The notes under the pieces are model-generated. The model was given only the letters and a program-made list of their open reading frames with translations. It searched no databases and had not been told where the DNA came from. Shown one piece after another: positions 18,071 to 28,869 of a stretch of 43,309 nt of DNA. The DNA is taken from NCBI RefSeq assembly GCF_017495225.1, contig NZ_JAFEIG010000036.1, positions 1-43,309 of the forward strand. The letters are read 5' to 3'. The stretch's first letter is position 1; each line of letters begins with the position of its first letter. Source of the DNA: Daejeonella sp. (GTDB lineage: Bacteria > Bacteroidota > Bacteroidia > Sphingobacteriales > Sphingobacteriaceae). The position numbers and the translations under genes were made by a program.

Positions 18071-20476
18071 ATGAAACGAGTGATTAGAAAAGTTGCTGTA
18101 TTAGGTTCGGGTATCATGGGCTCCCGAATTGCTTGTCATTTCGCCAATATAGGTGCTGAAGTGCTTCTGTTAGATATTTGCCCTAAAGAATTAAATGCTG
18201 ATGAGCAGGCTCGGGGACTTGATTTAAACCATAAAGCTGTGCGGAATCGCATTGTGAATGCTGCTCTCGACAGTACTTTAAAATCGAACCCCTCAGCCAT
18301 TTTTTCTAAAAAAGTTATTCCTAATATCACTACGGGCAACTTTGATGATAACATGAAGGATATCGCCACTTGCGATTGGGTTATTGAGGTGGTTGTTGAA
18401 AAGCTTGAAATCAAGAAGTTGATTTATGATCAGGTTGAAAAATATAGAACAGCGGGTACTTTAATAAGTTCCAATACATCTGGGATTCCTATTCATTTAA
18501 TGGCTGAAGGCCGTTCTGATGATTTTAGAGCTCATTTTTGTGGAACACACTTTTTTAACCCGCCACGTTATCTTCGTCTATTAGAAATAATTCCTACGCC
18601 CGAAACAAAGTCTGAGGTGATTGATTTTCTCATGCATTTCGGAGATAAATTTCTTGGCAAAACTACCGTTTTATGTAAGGATACGCCGGCATTTATCGCC
18701 AATAGGGTAGGTGTTTATTCGATTATGGCACTTCTTCATTTGGTGCAAAAAATGGATCTCACAGTTGAAGAGGTCGATAAATACACGGGTCCAGTTTTAG
18801 GAAGGCCTAAGTCAGCTACTTTCCGTACCACAGATGTTGTTGGTTTAGATACCATGATTAATGTGGCTGCTGGTTTATACAATAATCTGCCGAATGATAA
18901 AGCGCATCAACTCTTCGAACTTCCTGATTATGTGAAGAAGATGCAGGAAAATCAATGGCTTGGCGATAAAACTAAGCAGGGCTTTTATAAGAAAATTAAA
19001 GGTGCCGATGGGAAGTCGGAAATTCTTGCTCTAGACCTTAAAACTTTAGAATACAAGGCACAGCAAAAAGTAAAATCTCCTACACTCGAAGCATGTAAGT
19101 TGGTTGATAATTTACGTGAGCGAATGAAGGTTTTTGCGCAAGGAACTGATAAGGCTGGGGAGTTTTTCAGGACCTCTTTTTTCGGACTTTTCGAGTATGT
19201 TTCAGATCGTATTCCCGAGATTTCTGACGAATTATACCGCATTGATGATGCTATGAGGGCAGGTTTTGGCTGGGAGCTTGGTCCTTTTGAAGTATGGGAT
19301 GCTCTTGGTGTTAAAAATGCCCTTGAGGGAATGAAAAAATATGGCAAAGAAGCAGCTCCATGGGTGCATGAAATGATCTCTGCCGGTCATGATTCCTTTT
19401 ATAAGGTTGAAAATGGCATTAAGAAATATTATGATATCCCATCTAAAGCTTACAAGGTAGTTCCAGGCTCGGAAGCATTTATTATTCTTGATAATATTCG
19501 CTCAAACAATACGGTTTGGAAAAATTCGGGAACAACTATTACCGACCTTGGCGATGGTATCCTAAACCTTGAAATTCATACCAAAATGAATACAATTGGT
19601 GGTGAAGTTATTCAGGGTATGAATAAGGCAATAGACCTTGCTGAAAAAGATTTTAGAGGTCTGGTAATTGGTAATGATGGAGCAAATTTTTCGGCGGGAG
19701 CAAACATCGGAATGATATTTATGGCCGCCATAGAGCAGGATTGGGATGAAATTAATTTAGCTATCCGCATGTTCCAAAATACAATGATGCGGATGCGCTA
19801 TTCGAGTATTCCTGTGGTGGCAGCAGCTCATAATCTTACCCTTGGCGGTGGTTGTGAATTATGCTTACATGCCGATTTCGTACAAACCAATGCCGAAACT
19901 TATATGGGTTTGGTGGAGTTTGGTGTGGGATTAATACCTGGTGGTGGCGGGACAAAAGAATTTGCACTCCGACTTTCAGATGAATTTAAAGAGGGACAAA
20001 TTGAACAGGCAGCGCTAAGAGACCGATTTTTAACGATTGGGCAGGCTAAAGTTTCTACCTCTGGCTTAGAAGCATACGAACTTGGCTACCTTCAAAAAGA
20101 TAAATTCGGAATCACCATGAACCGGAGTCGCTTGATTGTTGACGCTAAAAATAAAGCTTTAGAGCTTGCTGATAGAGGTTATACCCAACCTGTAAGACGT
20201 AAAGATATTCGGGTTTTGGGTAAGCAGGGACTAGGAATAGTTTATGCAGGAGCGAATTCAATGTTTGCCGGGAACTTTATCTCAGAGCATGATAAAAAGA
20301 TATCTGAAAAGCTAGGTTATGTATTGTGTGGTGGTAATTTATCGCAACCTGCTCTTGTTACAGAACAATATTTACTCGATTTGGAGAGAGAAGTGTTCCT
20401 CTCACTTTGCGGCGAAAGAAAAACCCTAGAGCGTATTCAAAGCATTTTGACGAAGGGGAAACCTTTGAGGAATTGA
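18071..20476 (+). CDS. fadN: Bifunctional 3-hydroxyacyl-CoA dehydrogenase / enoyl-CoA hydratase
   Basis: I take the ATG at 18071, because a TTG 15 bp upstream overlaps the marR stop. The 801-residue protein opens with a Rossmann motif VAVLGSGIMGSRIA. It carries the dehydrogenase catalytic histidine in GTHFFNPPRYLRL near residue 160, followed by two dehydrogenase C-terminal domains. The enoyl-CoA hydratase domain comes last (about 490-700), with the oxyanion-hole GANFSAGANI and both catalytic glutamates in LGGGCELCLHAD and GLVEFGVGLIPGGG. Dehydrogenase-first order is that of Bacillus FadN and the reverse of E. coli FadB. It performs the two middle steps of beta-oxidation. fadA and fadE follow on the same strand, separated by inserted elements. 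Confidence 0.93.
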   Translation: MKRVIRKVAVLGSGIMGSRIACHFANIGAEVLLLDICPKELNADEQARGLDLNHKAVRNRIVNAALDSTLKSNPSAIFSKKVIPNITTGNFDDNMKDIATCDWVIEVVVEKLEIKKLIYDQVEKYRTAGTLISSNTSGIPIHLMAEGRSDDFRAHFCGTHFFNPPRYLRLLEIIPTPETKSEVIDFLMHFGDKFLGKTTVLCKDTPAFIANRVGVYSIMALLHLVQKMDLTVEEVDKYTGPVLGRPKSATFRTTDVVGLDTMINVAAGLYNNLPNDKAHQLFELPDYVKKMQENQWLGDKTKQGFYKKIKGADGKSEILALDLKTLEYKAQQKVKSPTLEACKLVDNLRERMKVFAQGTDKAGEFFRTSFFGLFEYVSDRIPEISDELYRIDDAMRAGFGWELGPFEVWDALGVKNALEGMKKYGKEAAPWVHEMISAGHDSFYKVENGIKKYYDIPSKAYKVVPGSEAFIILDNIRSNNTVWKNSGTTITDLGDGILNLEIHTKMNTIGGEVIQGMNKAIDLAEKDFRGLVIGNDGANFSAGANIGMIFMAAIEQDWDEINLAIRMFQNTMMRMRYSSIPVVAAAHNLTLGGGCELCLHADFVQTNAETYMGLVEFGVGLIPGGGGTKEFALRLSDEFKEGQIEQAALRDRFLTIGQAKVSTSGLEAYELGYLQKDKFGITMNRSRLIVDAKNKALELADRGYTQPVRRKDIRVLGKQGLGIVYAGANSMFAGNFISEHDKKISEKLGYVLCGGNLSQPALVTEQYLLDLEREVFLSLCGERKTLERIQSILTKGKPLRN

Positions 20477-20483
20477 GAAAGCA

Positions 20484-20532
20484 GATGTGAGATTTGAGAT
20501 GTGAGATTTGAGACATGTGACATTAGAAAAGA
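20484..20532 (+). repeat. Heptamer array (GATTTGA/GATGTGA), left flank of four-helix-bundle gene
   Basis: Seven consecutive 7-bp units begin 7 bp after the fadN stop: GATGTGA, GATTTGA, GATGTGA, GATTTGA, GACATGT, GACATTA, GAAAAGA. The 18-bp segment 20490-20507 (AGATTTGAGATGTGAGAT) occurs as an exact inverted copy at 20939-20956 on the other side of the small gene. Confidence 0.85.
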
Positions 20533-20535
20533 GTG

Positions 20536-20544
20536 TATAATTTG
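20536..20544 (+). promoter_or_regulatory. Possible promoter box of the four-helix-bundle gene
   Basis: TATAATTTG lies 13 bp before the start codon at 20558. It resembles the Bacteroidota -7 element TAnnTTTG but with one extra base in the spacer. The call is weak; the gene may simply be read through from fadN. Confidence 0.25.
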
Positions 20545-20557
20545 ATTTTAAGACTAT

Positions 20558-20929
20558 ATGCATAATTTGAAAGAGCTTAAAATATGGAAAAAGGCTATTG
20601 ATTTGGCAGTTGAGGTATATCAAGTTACTTCCTTATTCCCTCTTGAAGAGAAATACGGTTTAACCTCACAAATTCGCCGTGCAGCTGTCTCTATTTCATC
20701 TAATATCGCTGAAGGAGCTGGAAGAAATTCCGAAAAGGAATTTAAACATTTTTTAGGAATTGCGAATGGCTCTTCTTATGAACTTCAAACTCAATTATTT
20801 ATATCAAATAAACTAAGTCTTATAAACAATGAAGATTTAGAAAAATTGCATCACTGTATCGATGAATTACAAAAAATGAATTATGGTTTTCAGAATATGT
20901 TAAACAAAAAATCCTCAAATTTTAAATAA
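20558..20929 (+). CDS. Four-helix-bundle protein (23S rRNA intervening-sequence protein family)
   Basis: The 123-residue protein has the family hallmarks MHNLKELKIWKKAIDLA at the start, LFPLEEKYGLTSQIRRAAVS, the signature SSNIAEGAGRNSEKEF and GSSYELQTQL. These mark the S23/IVP family, helical proteins first known from insertions in 23S rRNA genes and sharing a fold with the Avd accessory protein of diversity-generating retroelements. Biochemical function is not established. Here the gene lies between fadN and fadA and is framed by inverted heptamer arrays, as is its paralogue at 22446. It has no evident metabolic link to beta-oxidation, so it is better seen as part of an inserted element. Confidence 0.9.
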   Translation: MHNLKELKIWKKAIDLAVEVYQVTSLFPLEEKYGLTSQIRRAAVSISSNIAEGAGRNSEKEFKHFLGIANGSSYELQTQLFISNKLSLINNEDLEKLHHCIDELQKMNYGFQNMLNKKSSNFK

Positions 20930-20932
20930 AAA

Positions 20933-20995
20933 TCTCATATCTCACATCTCAAATCTAATGTCTCATATCTCAAATCTAACTACTAAGTACTAAAT
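20933..20995 (+). repeat. Heptamer array (TCTCAAA/TCTCATA), right flank, reaching the fadA start codon
   Basis: Nine uninterrupted 7-bp units run from 20933 up to the base before the fadA ATG: TCTCATA, TCTCACA, TCTCAAA, TCTAATG, TCTCATA, TCTCAAA, TCTAACT, ACTAAGT, ACTAAAT. They are the inverted complement of the array at 20484. The whole untranslated leader of fadA is therefore repeat sequence. Confidence 0.88.
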
Positions 20996-22168
20996 ATGGC
21001 ATACATCATAGCAGCATATAGAACCGCAGTTGGAAAGTCTGCTCGCGGCGGATTTCGTTTTACTCGTGCCGATGATCTTGCGGCCGACGTTGTCAAACAT
21101 TTGATGGCGGAAATCCCAAATTTGGATAAAGATGAAATTGACGACGTGATTGTTGGAAATGCTACGCCAGAGGCTGAGCAGGGACTAAATATCGCACGTA
21201 TGGTCTCATTGATGGGTTTAGGTACAGATAAGGTGCCAGGGGTGACGGTAAATAGGTATTGTGCTTCGGGTTTAGAAACCATCGCGATGGCTACCGCAAA
21301 AATAAAATCAGGTATGGCCGATTGTATCATTGCGGGTGGTGTTGAAGTCATGTCTGGGATGCCTTTCGGTGGATGGAAATTAGTCCCGAACCCAGAAGTT
21401 GCCAAAAACAATCCAGATTGGTACTGGGGTATGGGACTCACAGCTGAAGCTGTTGCAAAAGAATATAAGGTTAATCGTGAAGATCAAGACGAGTTTTCCT
21501 TCAATTCTCACCAAAAGGCTATTGCAGCGATAAAAAATGGGCATCTCAAGGATGGTGTGGTGCCAATTACCGTGAAGGAAACCTATTTAGATGAAAACTT
21601 AAAACAAAAAACTAGAGAGTTTATCGTAGATACGGATGAAGGTCCGAGGGCTGATACCGCCATCGATAAACTTGCAAAATTGAAGCCTGTTTTTGCCGCT
21701 GGTGGTACTGTTACAGCGGGAAATTCATCACAAACATCAGATGGAGCAGCTTTTGTGCTTGTTGTTTCTGAGAGAATGCTTAAAAAATTGAATGTAGAGC
21801 CTATTGCACGTTTAGTGAGTTATGGAGTAGCCGGTGTGCCCCCTAGAATTATGGGTATTGGTCCGATAGAAGCTATCCCCCTCGCATTAAAAAAGGCTGG
21901 AATGAAGCAAGATGACCTTGATTTGATCGAATTAAATGAGGCCTTTGCTTCACAATCTCTTGCTGTAATTAGAGCGCTCAATCTCGACCAAAACAAGGTA
22001 AATGTGAATGGAGGAGCAATTGCTCTGGGCCATCCACTTGGATGCACTGGTGCTAAACTTTCTGTTCAACTATTCAATGAGCTGAAAAGAAGAGAAAAGA
22101 AATTCGGTATGGTTACAATGTGCGTTGGAACGGGACAAGGGGCAGCGGGAATATTTGAAATAATGTAA
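20996..22168 (+). CDS. fadA: Acetyl-CoA acyltransferase (3-ketoacyl-CoA thiolase)
   Basis: The 390-residue protein is a complete degradative thiolase. The nucleophile is Cys89 in VNRYCASGLETIA, the catalytic histidine is His346 in GGAIALGHPLGCTGA, and the second cysteine is Cys376 in MCVGTGQGAAG. It cleaves 3-ketoacyl-CoA with CoA to release acetyl-CoA, the last step of each beta-oxidation round. It is the partner of FadN and lies second in the fad operon. Spacing to fadN (519 bp) and fadE (917 bp) is unusually wide because of the repeat/four-helix elements. Its leader consists of heptamer repeats, so translation initiation may depend on them. Confidence 0.95.
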   Translation: MAYIIAAYRTAVGKSARGGFRFTRADDLAADVVKHLMAEIPNLDKDEIDDVIVGNATPEAEQGLNIARMVSLMGLGTDKVPGVTVNRYCASGLETIAMATAKIKSGMADCIIAGGVEVMSGMPFGGWKLVPNPEVAKNNPDWYWGMGLTAEAVAKEYKVNREDQDEFSFNSHQKAIAAIKNGHLKDGVVPITVKETYLDENLKQKTREFIVDTDEGPRADTAIDKLAKLKPVFAAGGTVTAGNSSQTSDGAAFVLVVSERMLKKLNVEPIARLVSYGVAGVPPRIMGIGPIEAIPLALKKAGMKQDDLDLIELNEAFASQSLAVIRALNLDQNKVNVNGGAIALGHPLGCTGAKLSVQLFNELKRREKKFGMVTMCVGTGQGAAGIFEIM

Positions 22169-22171
22169 AAG

Positions 22172-22311
22172 GAGTAAAGAGCAAGGAGCAAAGAACAAGG
22201 AAAAAAGAATAAAGAACAAGGAATAAAGAACAAAGATCAAGGAATAAAGAACAAAGACAAAACTTTATTAGCACGAACTAGTCCTTACTCTTTACTCCTT
22301 GTTCCTTGCTC
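22172..22311 (+). repeat. Long heptamer hairpin (GAACAAA/GAATAAA arm, TCCTTGC arm)
   Basis: Twelve heptamers in exact register run from 22172 to 22255, from GAGTAAA and GAGCAAG through to GAATAAA and GAACAAA. They start 3 bp after the fadA stop. A core of about 25 bp with CTTTATTAGCACGAACTA follows. The opposite arm is TCCTTAC, TCTTTAC, TCCTTGT, TCCTTGC, TC (22282-22311), which is complementary to the first arm. Confidence 0.88.
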
Positions 22312-22412
22312 AAAAAATCATGTAGAAAGAACAAAGATTAAAGAACAAAGACAAGCGTATTAGAAATCATTAACCTAACCTGTCCATACTCCTTGCTCCT
22401 TGTTCCTTGCTC
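22312..22412 (+). repeat. Stem-loop repeat unit A of the GAACAAA/TCCTTGC family
   Basis: The left arm GAACAAA, GATTAAA, GAACAAA (22329-22349) is followed by the loop GACAAGCGTATTAGAAATCA, then TTAACCTAACCTG. The right arm is TCCATAC, TCCTTGC, TCCTTGT, TCCTTGC, TC (22383-22412). It is the same unit as the three copies after the next gene and ends 33 bp before the four-helix-bundle start codon. Confidence 0.85.
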
Positions 22413-22445
22413 AAAAACCAGGGGGATTTTAATAGTTATTATACG

Positions 22446-22832
22446 ATGCACAATTTTAGAAAACTAAACATTTGGATAGATGCGATGGCTCTCGCAAAAG
22501 AAGTGTATTTGATCACATCTAAATTCCCAAAGGATGAAAAATTTGGTTTAGTTTCTCAAATTAATAGGTGCTCAGTATCAGTTCCTTCTAATATAGCTGA
22601 GGGATCTTCAAGAAGCTCAAAAAAGGAGTTTTCACACTTTATAAAGATCGCTTTAGGGTCTTTATTTGAGTTGGAAACTCAGTTGATTTTGTCAAATGAA
22701 GTCGGATTTTATGACATCGAAAAATTGAATGCTTTGGAGCCAAAGATTGTCAAGCTTCAGAAAATGCTGTGTAGATTTTTAATTAGTATAGAAGAAAAAA
22801 ACAATGTAGAAAGAACAAAGAACAATGAATAA
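22446..22832 (+). CDS. Four-helix-bundle protein (23S rRNA intervening-sequence protein family), second copy
   Basis: This 128-residue paralogue of the gene at 20558 starts MHNFRKLNIWIDAMALAK and has SKFPKDEKFGLVSQINRC, the SNIAEGSSRSSKKEF signature and GSLFELETQL. The ATG at 22446 aligns with the start of the first copy; the longer TTG start at 22407 lies inside a repeat. Its last ten residues (NNVERTKNNE) and stop codon are encoded by the following repeat unit, so the C-terminus has been set by the repeat. It stands between fadA and fadE and is flanked by stem-loop repeats on both sides. The function of the family is unknown. Confidence 0.9.
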   Translation: MHNFRKLNIWIDAMALAKEVYLITSKFPKDEKFGLVSQINRCSVSVPSNIAEGSSRSSKKEFSHFIKIALGSLFELETQLILSNEVGFYDIEKLNALEPKIVKLQKMLCRFLISIEEKNNVERTKNNE

Positions 22833-23078
22833 AGACAAGCGTATTAGAAATCACTAACCTAGTCCTTACTCTTTACTCCTTGCTCAAAAACAATGTAGAA
22901 AGAACAAAGAACAATGACTAAAGACAAGCGTATTAGAAATCACTAACCTGTCCTTACTCTTTGCTCCTTGTTCCTTAATCAAAATATAATGTAAAAAGAA
23001 CAAAGAACAATGACTAAAGACAAGCGTATTAGAAATCACTAACCTAGTCCTTACTCTTTGCTCCTTGTTCCTTAATCC
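22796..23078 (+). repeat. Three tandem stem-loop repeat units B-D (GAACAAA/TCCTTGC family)
   Basis: The left arms (GAACAAA, GAACAAT, GAATAAA or GACTAAA) begin at 22813, 22902 and 22998, so the periods are 89 and 96 bp and differ by exactly one heptamer. Each unit has the conserved loop AAGCGTATTAGAAATCACTA, then ACCT, and a complementary right arm of TCCTTAC-type heptamers. The last arm ends just before the fadE start. Confidence 0.9.
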
Positions 23079-23085
23079 CAAATTT

Positions 23086-24876
23086 ATGGAAGAATTAAAA
23101 AACAAATCAATCAGAGGCGGAGAGTTCATCATCCGCGAAACAGCATGTGAAGATATTTTCATTCCTGAAGAGTTTGATGAAGAGCAGTTGATGATCAAGA
23201 AAACTTGTGAAGATTTTCTTGAATCGGAGGTTTATGCCAATTTAGACAGAATTGATAAGCTAGAAGAAGGTTTAATGGTTAGTTTAATGGATAAGGCTGG
23301 TGAACTTGGTTTATTAGCCGTATCTATCCCTGAAGAGTATGGTGGTTTTGGAAAAAATTTCAATACCTCTATGCTTGTTGCGGATTCTGTCGGACCAGGT
23401 TGTTCCTTTGCAGTTGCTCTTTCAGCCCATACAGGAATTGGCACCTTACCTATTTTATATTACGGAAATAAGGAGCAGAAAGATAAATATATTCCGAAAT
23501 TGGCTACAGGCGAATGGAAGGCTTCCTATTGCCTTACAGAGCCAAACTCTGGTTCGGATGCTAATTCGGCTAGAACAAAAGCAGTTCTTAATGAAGCAGG
23601 CACACATTACCTCATTACGGGACAGAAAATGTGGATTACCAATGCTGGTTTTGCTGATATTTTTATTGTTTTCGCCAAAATTGACGACGATAAAAATCTA
23701 TCTGCATTTATTGTAGAAAAAGACTTTGGTGGGATTACCATGAATCCTGAGGAGCATAAAATGGGAATTAAGGGCTCATCAACACGTCAGGTGTTTTTTA
23801 ATGAATGCCCTGTTCCTGTAGCTAATTTGCTTTCAGAGCGTCAAAATGGGTTTAAGATTGCAGTTAATATTTTAAATATCGGTAGAATTAAACTGGGAGT
23901 TGCCGCAATTGGTTCATCTCGCAGGGTTTTAAATCACGCCATTAATTATTCGAATGAACGCGTTCAGTTCGGACTACCAATCTCAAAATTTGGGGCAATC
24001 CGATACAAACTCGCCGAAATGGCCAGCAGAAATTTTGCGATTGAAAGTGCCGCCTATCGTGCCGGACAAAATATTGATGATGCCTATGATGCTTTAGTAG
24101 CTGAAGGTATGGATCCATCTCAAGCAAAGCTTAAATCTACTGAACAGTTTGCCGTTGAATGTGCCATTTTAAAAGTTTGGGGATCTGAAATGCTCGATTA
24201 TATCGTTGATGAAGGAGTTCAGGTTTATGGTGGAATGGGCTATTCTGCCGATGCGCCAATGGATCGTGCATATCGCGATAGCCGCATCAACAGGATTTTT
24301 GAAGGTACCAATGAAATTAATCGAATGTTGATTCTAGACATGCTTTTGAAGCGTGCCATGAAAGGGGAGTTGGATTTAATGACCCCTGCTCAAGCAGTTG
24401 CATCCGAATTAATGTCGATTCCTGATTTTGCTGAGGAAGATACCACTCTATTTGCCGCCGAGAAGAAAGTACTGCAAAATCTTAAAAAAGCGGGACTAAT
24501 GATTGCTGGTGCTGCCGTACAAAAGTTAATGATGACACTCTCCAAAGAACAAGAGATTTTAATGAATATCGCCGATATTATTGGCTATGTATATGTTCTT
24601 GAATCAACCGTTCTTCGTGTTGAAAAATTAGTTAAAATGAGAGGTGAAGAGGCTTGTAAAGGTCAGCTAGATTTAATGCGAATCTATCTTTATCAATCAG
24701 TGGACAAAGTTTCAATAGCCGGTAAAGAAGCCCTCTGCTCTTTTGCTGAAGGCGATGAATTAAGGATGATGCTTGTGGGTCTTCGCCGATTTACGAAAAT
24801 TGAACCATTTAACATTAAGGATGCCAGACAGCGTGTTGCCAAACAGCTCATTGAATCCAATAAATACTGTTACTAA
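23086..24876 (+). CDS. fadE: Acyl-CoA dehydrogenase
   Basis: The start is taken at the ATG at 23086, because the upstream TTG lies in repeat sequence. The 596-residue protein has the acyl-CoA dehydrogenase N-terminal and middle domains (YCLTEPNSGSDANSARTKA, KMWITNAGFADIF). The flavin/substrate motif YGGMGYSADAPMDRAYRD and the catalytic-base region RIFEGTNEINRMLI (Glu406) follow, and then a C-terminal extension of about 170 residues. The extension is typical of the long VLCAD/FadE-type enzymes. It makes the first, FAD-dependent double bond of beta-oxidation. It is the last fad gene and is followed by a strong terminator. Confidence 0.93.
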   Translation: MEELKNKSIRGGEFIIRETACEDIFIPEEFDEEQLMIKKTCEDFLESEVYANLDRIDKLEEGLMVSLMDKAGELGLLAVSIPEEYGGFGKNFNTSMLVADSVGPGCSFAVALSAHTGIGTLPILYYGNKEQKDKYIPKLATGEWKASYCLTEPNSGSDANSARTKAVLNEAGTHYLITGQKMWITNAGFADIFIVFAKIDDDKNLSAFIVEKDFGGITMNPEEHKMGIKGSSTRQVFFNECPVPVANLLSERQNGFKIAVNILNIGRIKLGVAAIGSSRRVLNHAINYSNERVQFGLPISKFGAIRYKLAEMASRNFAIESAAYRAGQNIDDAYDALVAEGMDPSQAKLKSTEQFAVECAILKVWGSEMLDYIVDEGVQVYGGMGYSADAPMDRAYRDSRINRIFEGTNEINRMLILDMLLKRAMKGELDLMTPAQAVASELMSIPDFAEEDTTLFAAEKKVLQNLKKAGLMIAGAAVQKLMMTLSKEQEILMNIADIIGYVYVLESTVLRVEKLVKMRGEEACKGQLDLMRIYLYQSVDKVSIAGKEALCSFAEGDELRMMLVGLRRFTKIEPFNIKDARQRVAKQLIESNKYCY

Positions 24877-28729: not shown

Positions 28730-28749
28730 TAAAAATTATTATTCAAAAT

Positions 28750-28869
28750 CTGTCAGTCCGGACCCCGATCCGTTAGAAAACATATTATTAAACTCTGTCA
28801 GTCTGGGCCCCGATCCGTCAGATAATATTATTATTTGAACTCTGTCAGTCCGGACCACGATCCGGACTG
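28750..28869. repeat. Three REP-like palindromic repeats between convergent genes
   Basis: CTGTCAGTCCGGACCCCGAT plus CCG and close variants occur at 28750, 28795 and 28842, spaced 45 and 47 bp. The third copy forms a full hairpin, CAGTCCGGA paired with TCCGGACTG over a 6-nt loop, and ends 2 bp before the CBS gene stop. The GC-rich cores stand out from the AT-rich surroundings. They may serve as terminators or be remnants of REP-type elements. Confidence 0.8.

Follow-up and report, generated by a model that had tools for sequence, protein, structure and literature searches.

We found that the S23 (four-helix-bundle) gene at 22446–22832, which lies between two metabolic genes and amid five hairpin units with arms of period 7, represents an arrangement that recurs at S23 loci in its genus, in other Bacteroidota and on plasmids. 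Our preferred reading, to which we give a probability of about 0.6, is that an S23 gene and its own heptamer arms make up an element resembling the intervening sequences (IVSs) of rRNA that has settled between genes. In the window (the whole analysed stretch of 43,309 bases, from a 3.1-Mb genome, G000) this would apply twice.

In the proposed arrangement, the S23 gene and two heptamer arms would form a single element, akin to the 23S rRNA IVS but intergenic, which would settle between a stop codon and the start of the next gene, often inside apparent operons. The arms would be inverted copies of a short word, G-rich 5′ of the gene, whose pairing would place the S23 gene in a loop. Since RNase III cuts rRNA IVSs out of the transcript, as stated in a passage of PMC4990558, a host transcript might by analogy be freed of the element at the stem; such processing, like the mode of insertion or movement, is a presumed part of the model. 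If the model is true, S23-bearing rRNA IVSs would be a particular form within a broader class of intergenic elements. The recurrence of the layout, together with the tendency of the arm word to go with the version of the protein, suggests a type of selfish or self-marking element that has so far been overlooked.

Two S23 elements in the window

The features of the two elements and of the genes next to them, all on the forward strand, are as follows.

20483–20530, + strand: 5′ heptad arm of the first element, AGATGTG type
20558–20929, + strand: S23 gene of the first element, likewise a four-helix-bundle gene (PF05635, Pfam E = 2.5e-41)
20932–20979, + strand: 3′ heptad arm of the first element, complement of the AGATGTG type
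20996–22168, + strand: host gene separating the two elements, presumably a thiolase by resemblance, with relatives in 18/20 genus genomes (E up to 1e-100)
22172–22318, + strand: long hairpin unit, 5′ heptad arm at about 22172–22261 and 3′ arm at 22282–22318
22320–22412, + strand: short hairpin unit 5′ of the S23 gene, loop 22351–22369
22446–22832, + strand: S23 (four-helix-bundle) gene of the second element, PF05635, 128 aa
22804–22892, + strand: short hairpin unit, loop 22835–22853, its first part overlapping the end of the S23 gene
22893–22988, + strand: short hairpin unit, loop 22924–22942, 96 bp to the following unit
22989–23078, + strand: short hairpin unit, loop 23020–23038, ending 7 nt short of the ATG at 23086
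23086–24876, + strand: downstream host gene, which we take by resemblance to be an acyl-CoA dehydrogenase; the ATG at 23086 was chosen as its start, the open reading frame list having TTG at 23065

The first-pass annotation had described one long and four short units around the gene at 22446, with unit lengths of 89 and 96 bp, and had paired this locus with a first one of the same kind. Sequence and repeat reading showed the same five units, spacings of 89 and 96 bp (a 7-bp difference) were confirmed, and the first locus proved real, its S23 gene (20558–20929) lying between arms of the AGATGTG type. At the second locus the long unit begins 3 nt past the stop codon of the gene that precedes it, and throughout 22172–23078 the 5′ arms are purine-rich, the 3′ arms pyrimidine-rich and the period 7. 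Over 35 nt, identity at lag 7 rose to 0.77 on the 5′ side of gene 22446–22832 and to 0.69 on its 3′ side, values as high being reached in 0/500 dinucleotide shuffles of either flank; intergenic tandem 7-nt units, the hallmark of heptamer simple sequence repeats, are present at the locus. The start of the hairpin unit at 22804–22832 also encodes the final S23 codons, the tail of the protein being made of repeat sequence.

The protein encoded at 22446–22832 matches PF05635 (E = 4.4e-38; 130.2 bits against a cut-off of 33.8) and TIGR02436 (E = 1.2e-34; 118.8 bits against 24), and neither S23 protein of the window has a Pfam match other than PF05635. One solved relative, 2gsc, was found at E up to 0.001 (E = 9.2e-21), and the five chains in this entry are in line with the homopentamer described for Xanthomonas S23p in a passage of PMC4990558, which also states that S23 proteins have no known function.

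Recurrence of inverted, period-7 arms

Three PF05635 matches occur in the window's own genome, whose S23 lineages include those of the AGATGTG and GAACAAG words. Such matches are present in 18/20 genus genomes and number 114 in total, some of them interrupted by in-frame stops. After leaving out fragments, low scorers and genes at contig ends, 90 genus loci were retained, 88 of which had both flanks of at least 120 bp and were usable. For each, the 250 bases 5′ of the gene were paired with the 250 bases 3′ of it, with a threshold score of 18 and flanks swapped between loci as control. The mean pairing score was 22.4 for own flanks against 11.3 for between-locus swaps, and 71/88 loci reached at least 18 as compared with 5.3% of swapped pairs, the other 17 scoring lower. 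The arms have a marked period: among the 176 genus flanks, identity of at least 0.75 over 35 nt was reached at lag 7 in 38, lag 14 in 33 and lag 21 in 25, as against 2 at lag 8 and 0 or 1 at each remaining lag from 3 to 21. The arm unit is mostly 7 nt, and by eye looks like 8 nt at host sites 7 and 8.

As a control we used loci with GIY-YIG genes (20/30 usable), where 0/40 flanks reached 0.75 at any lag. This control is clean for period 7 only and not for inverted flanks, given that 6/20 of its loci had flanks scoring at least 18. These solitary GIY-YIG genes in inverted flanks without period 7 (L095, L098, L100, L114, L115 and L116, scores 21–49) are perhaps another small mobile element.

Outside the genus, the nearest S23 match in named records (L147, from a Pedobacter metagenome assembly, 78% identity) was left out of a set made of the 80 top-ranking relatives among 571 that were confirmed, and 76 of the remaining 79 loci had flanks. 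Among these best-matching relatives in other Bacteroidota, own arms scored at least 18 at 40/76 loci against 4.9% of swapped pairs (36 scoring lower), and of their 152 flanks 12 showed lag 7, 7 showed lag 14, 3 showed lag 15 and 0–2 showed any other lag. The plasmid set consisted of 21 regions picked by choice from 29 and 40 records; the 20 loci counted were 18 cyanobacterial ones, one of Gemmatirosa and one of Azospirillum, and a Riemerella locus (L258), with an arm score of 22, was left out of the count. Own arms scored at least 18 at 11/20 plasmid loci against 5.8% of swapped pairs (9/20 scoring lower), and of their 40 flanks 13 showed lag 7, 9 showed lag 14 and 2 showed lag 8, with no flank showing any of the remaining lags between 3 and 15. 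The idea that this protein family sits next to period-7 inverted repeats, put forward from the two cases in the window, is thereby upheld far beyond them in all three sets.

Placement, polarity and host sites

In the genus, the 5′ arm starts at a median of −1 nt from the stop codon that closes the preceding open frame (interquartile range −4 to 8, n = 63); the median is 2 nt in other Bacteroidota (n = 39) and 32.5 in six cyanobacterial cases. Moreover, among loci with arms, G exceeds C in the 5′ arm in 63/71 in the genus, 35/40 in other Bacteroidota and 7/7 in cyanobacteria. The S23 gene is codirectional with both host neighbours at 56 of 85 loci (+S+) and opposite to both at 12 (−S−), the remaining arrangements being +S− (11) and −S+ (6); these mixed orientations rule out strict same-strand insertion. 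Several plasmid S23 genes sit between genes of one pathway, such as cas6 and cas4, cas10/cmr2 and a Cmr3 gene, or ribonucleotide reductase genes. On cyanobacterial plasmids S23 was seen among CRISPR genes at three loci (L248, L254 and L257), with cas6/cas4 twice and cas10/cmr3 once.

The genus loci fell into 12 shared sites and 19 singletons, of which one (L017) belongs to site 0. Some genomes lack the gene at a site where others have it. By eye, G002 has a short site 0 with no array, and arm-like remains without S23 lie at site 0 in G001 and at site 3 in G011 and G012. At the one empty site looked at, no target duplication was noticed.

Loop, folding and mismatches of the arms

The arms might instead be functional RNA, that is, transcribed hairpins under selection, in which structure is fixed and sequence is free and which act as regulators of the S23 gene or of the host operon, and the first-pass annotation had leaned this way, arguing from a constant loop and variable arms to selection for a folded nucleic acid. 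We regard this alternative as improbable. The loop core ACAAGCGTATTAGAAATCA, of 19 bases, is indeed identical in the four short units (starts at 22351, 22835, 22924 and 23020), but by eye the loop of the long unit differs, and the genome-wide count gave 4 exact copies in 3.1 Mb, all within 22172–23078, an outcome that the annotation had itself named as contrary to its proposal. Elsewhere in the genome there were two matches with 3 mismatches, compared with one for a reversed control pattern. Because exact copies are confined to the locus, the constancy of the loop is best explained by recent local duplication, and the loop as a recurrent RNA motif is ruled out.

Folding gave a mixed picture. 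As sense RNA, the four short units had energies of −10.3 to −15.7 kcal/mol, two of them with z-scores of −2.9 and −3.6, in favour of a structured RNA, and two folding weakly (−1.6 and −0.8), which speaks against it. The long unit folded well both as sense (−33.2 kcal/mol, z −5.4) and as antisense RNA (−43.3 kcal/mol, z −7.0). The one short unit tested in antisense (22896–22981) gave −37 kcal/mol (z −7.4). Were sense RNA stems under selection, G–U pairs should outnumber A–C mismatches. Counted by site, A–C exceeded G–U in 38 cases and G–U exceeded A–C in 19, with 17 ties (p 0.016), and the excess of A–C was strongest at the site in the window (45 to 13). Selection on sense RNA through G–U wobble is therefore unsupported, and the local loop and the weak to moderate sense folding of the short units likewise tell against the selection for folding that had been proposed. 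The A–C excess could stem from antisense RNA, single-stranded DNA or mutation bias. Duplex energies showed a less clear lean, favouring the antisense strand at 35 genus loci and the sense strand at 35 (n = 72), with 24 and 18, respectively, in other Bacteroidota (n = 43) and 5 and 2 in cyanobacteria (n = 7). An Rfam search of 20300–23400 returned nothing near gathering score, only chance microRNA matches, and the variable orientation of S23 relative to host genes also fits poorly with a regulatory RNA. With regard to a reading of the C-rich 3′ arms as Rho sites, several arm words by eye lack YC steps.

The comparison of arms within host sites gives the functional-RNA alternative some further support. 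At sites 0, 1, 2 and 3, own arms paired better than arms swapped between species at the same site (permutation p <0.0001, 0.002, <0.0001 and 0.0005, respectively); own arms had no such advantage at sites 4, 5, 7 and 8, and the effect at site 6 was weak (p 0.08). Co-inheritance of the arms or arm-to-arm correction would explain the complementarity within species at sites 0–3 as well as selection on RNA would.

Arm words and S23 protein identity

The arm word follows S23 protein identity across unrelated host sites. We compared words among 110 loci with arms, mainly in pairs from different genomes that have no host gene in common. In such pairs mean word similarity was 0.13–0.15 below 50% protein identity, 0.21–0.33 at 50–65%, 0.73 at 65–70% (n = 19) and 0.66 at 70–80% (n = 12). 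Pairs with a common host gene and proteins only 45–60% identical had a similarity of 0.19–0.29. Different sites of the same genome with proteins below 50% identity had a similarity of 0.12–0.15, and thus the words are no genome-wide dialect.

Pairs at or above 65% identity are not independent, as 29 loci make up 32 pairs and one locus, L009, takes part in 10. With L009 removed, 19/22 pairs at or above 65% identity had a word similarity of at least 0.4, and among disjoint pairs this level was reached by 5/6 at or above 65% and by 8/14 at or above 60% (the words of the other six not matching), against a background of 2.8% of 4397 pairs under 50% identity. Exceptions were L065 with L075 and L076 (66–67% identical, similarity 0.16), L162 with L202 (65% identical, 0.19) and the sole same-genome pair at 65–70% identity (0.15). 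On the protein tree, which is built from few columns and has many unresolved forks, words required 32 changes compared with a minimum of 72 among 100 shuffled draws; other Bacteroidota alone required 12, against a shuffled minimum of 16. Site labels, taken over sites 0–8 alone, required only 8 changes on the same tree, which indicates that the sites are also old.

Simple co-inheritance could produce the link between word and protein. Linked inheritance is part of the explanation of this link, one that accounts less easily for the resident words in arrays lacking S23 (see below). Mutation alone could also make arms alike, by template switching between inverted arms together with 7-nt slippage and with no role for the protein. 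Both are known processes in general, and, as they would predict, the two arms of a locus have words in common even when the species compared at a single site differ. Nevertheless, the unit of 7 (rarely 8) and the mostly G-rich 5′ arm are left unexplained, as are the separate words of different S23 genes in one genome and the occurrence of resident words in arrays without S23, so that we hold this explanation to be very unlikely. Under our preferred reading, the covariation of word and protein suggests that the S23 ring protein recognizes its own word, and such recognition might help to keep, copy or spread the arrays in trans.

Heptamer arrays without S23

Period-7 arrays also occur on their own. 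Taking as solo arrays those of period 7 that lie in sampled stretches free of PF05635 matches (mostly-N stretches of G010 being dropped), we found 43 in ~1.84 Mb sampled from nine S23-bearing genomes. Two genomes devoid of S23 had 0 in 385 kb; this absence is weak evidence because S23-rich G006 and G012, with 200 kb sampled from each, also had none. Many solo arrays carry resident words: 29/43 resembled (similarity at least 0.4) the arm of an S23 gene resident in the same genome, whereas equal-size sets of words from other genomes gave a mean of 8.9 and a maximum of 20 in 200 draws. Matches were 11/11 in G000, 8/12 in G001, 5/7 in G013, 4/8 in G015, 1/2 in G005, 0/2 in G014 and 0/1 in G010, and an inverted partner lay nearby for 11 of the 33 solo arrays tested. 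Several solo arrays in the window's own genome adjoin a palindromic repeat, GGCTGAGGTTCTCGAAGCC, which has 76 matches there at no more than 2 mismatches and 0–1 in each of the 20 relatives searched, and these arrays may have spread along with it. At the end of the contig (42507–43309), TCAGTTA heptads and the palindrome-like GGCTGAGGTTCTCGAAGCC are followed by AGTATTT and TCCTTAC heptads up to the last base, and there is no PF05635 match in this segment.

Arrays of this kind would be expected if the S23 gene were a mere passenger and its heptamer arms simple repeats, spread by a REP/RAYT-like transposase or by slippage, that share the same tolerated intergenic gaps. That some of the arrays adjoin a 76-copy palindrome, that PF05635 is the sole Pfam family matched by the window S23 proteins and that heptamer repeats have been published without S23 in the main text (PMC4679880 and PMC4692102, as far as the passages concerned go) all agree with this alternative. 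Yet it is hard to reconcile with a period of 7 in S23 flanks far over background, as gauged by the GIY-YIG control, and with arm words that track S23 protein identity across sites, and we consider it unlikely.

A wider form of our preferred reading, which we put forward only tentatively, is that S23 proteins might be rings that bind nucleic acid word-specifically and act in trans, each lineage in the upkeep, copying or spread of arrays of its own heptamer and several orthogonal systems existing side by side in a genome, with the heptamer repeats of cyanobacteria, Beggiatoaceae and Xanthomonas and the S23 IVSs as their products. The heptamer repeats described in bacteria have no known cause, and a link between protein and word makes them testable together with the function of S23.

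Comparison with known repeats and elements

Among the repeats that resemble the arms are the cyanobacterial STRRs, which are heptanucleotide repeats. Others are TAACTGA in Beggiatoaceae (MacGregor 2015, PMC4679880) and GGGNATC and GGGGA(C/T)T in Xanthomonas, often in inverted pairs (Rehm 2015, PMC4692102), as given in passages of these papers. All resemble the elements described here in that 7-nt words form arrays between genes, close to stop or start codons, and the TCAGTTA arrays of the window's own genome are the TAACTGA of the cited passage (PMC4679880) on the opposite strand. They differ in that the passages of PMC4679880 and PMC4692102 hold no linkage of protein to word, the terms 'S23' and 'helix bundle' being absent from the main texts insofar as these were covered. 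More generally, a link between S23 and heptamers was not found in print in the open-access literature searched, mostly by listings.

Other comparisons concern the gene and its possible partners. S23 is distantly like Avd of diversity-generating retroelements (NCBIfam E = 2.9e-5; 24.3 bits, the cut-off being 80). No reverse transcriptase (PF00078, E up to 0.001) was found in the window's own genome, and 3/20 genus genomes have one; with none found in the other 17, a reverse-transcriptase partner such as that of Avd is ruled out for most genomes, and help from such an enzyme for S23 elements is unlikely. Carriage by phages was examined with one S23 query, which had no match in the phage collection at E up to 1e-3. 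REP/RAYT systems, which are marked by an adjacent Y1/HUH transposase gene, are similar in having dispersed small palindromes and a possible partner gene; they differ in that both window S23 proteins match PF05635 only. The open reading frames next to the window elements look metabolic by eye. Another repeat in the window, a tandem array of 2.9 copies of ~45 bp at 28731–28864, lies between two genes.

Our preferred reading likens the elements to those rRNA IVSs that have an S23 open reading frame between complementary ends able to form a stem. In the window element, complementary borders able to form a stem and a PF05635 open reading frame are both present; unlike 23S rRNA IVSs, it lies between protein genes, and 20300–23400 has no rRNA match. 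The Azospirillum copy in our plasmid set is located within a 23S rRNA gene and is the one IVS examined for heptad arms. It was counted as a miss (score 10) in the 11/20 above, the gene start having been set inside the 5′ arm. With the whole 5′ arm its score rose to 26, compared with 9–16 when this arm was paired with 3′ flanks taken from eleven other loci. In each arm, lag 7 outdid all other lags (0.68 over 28 nt). Thus, at least one classical IVS has the same kind of arms as the intergenic elements.
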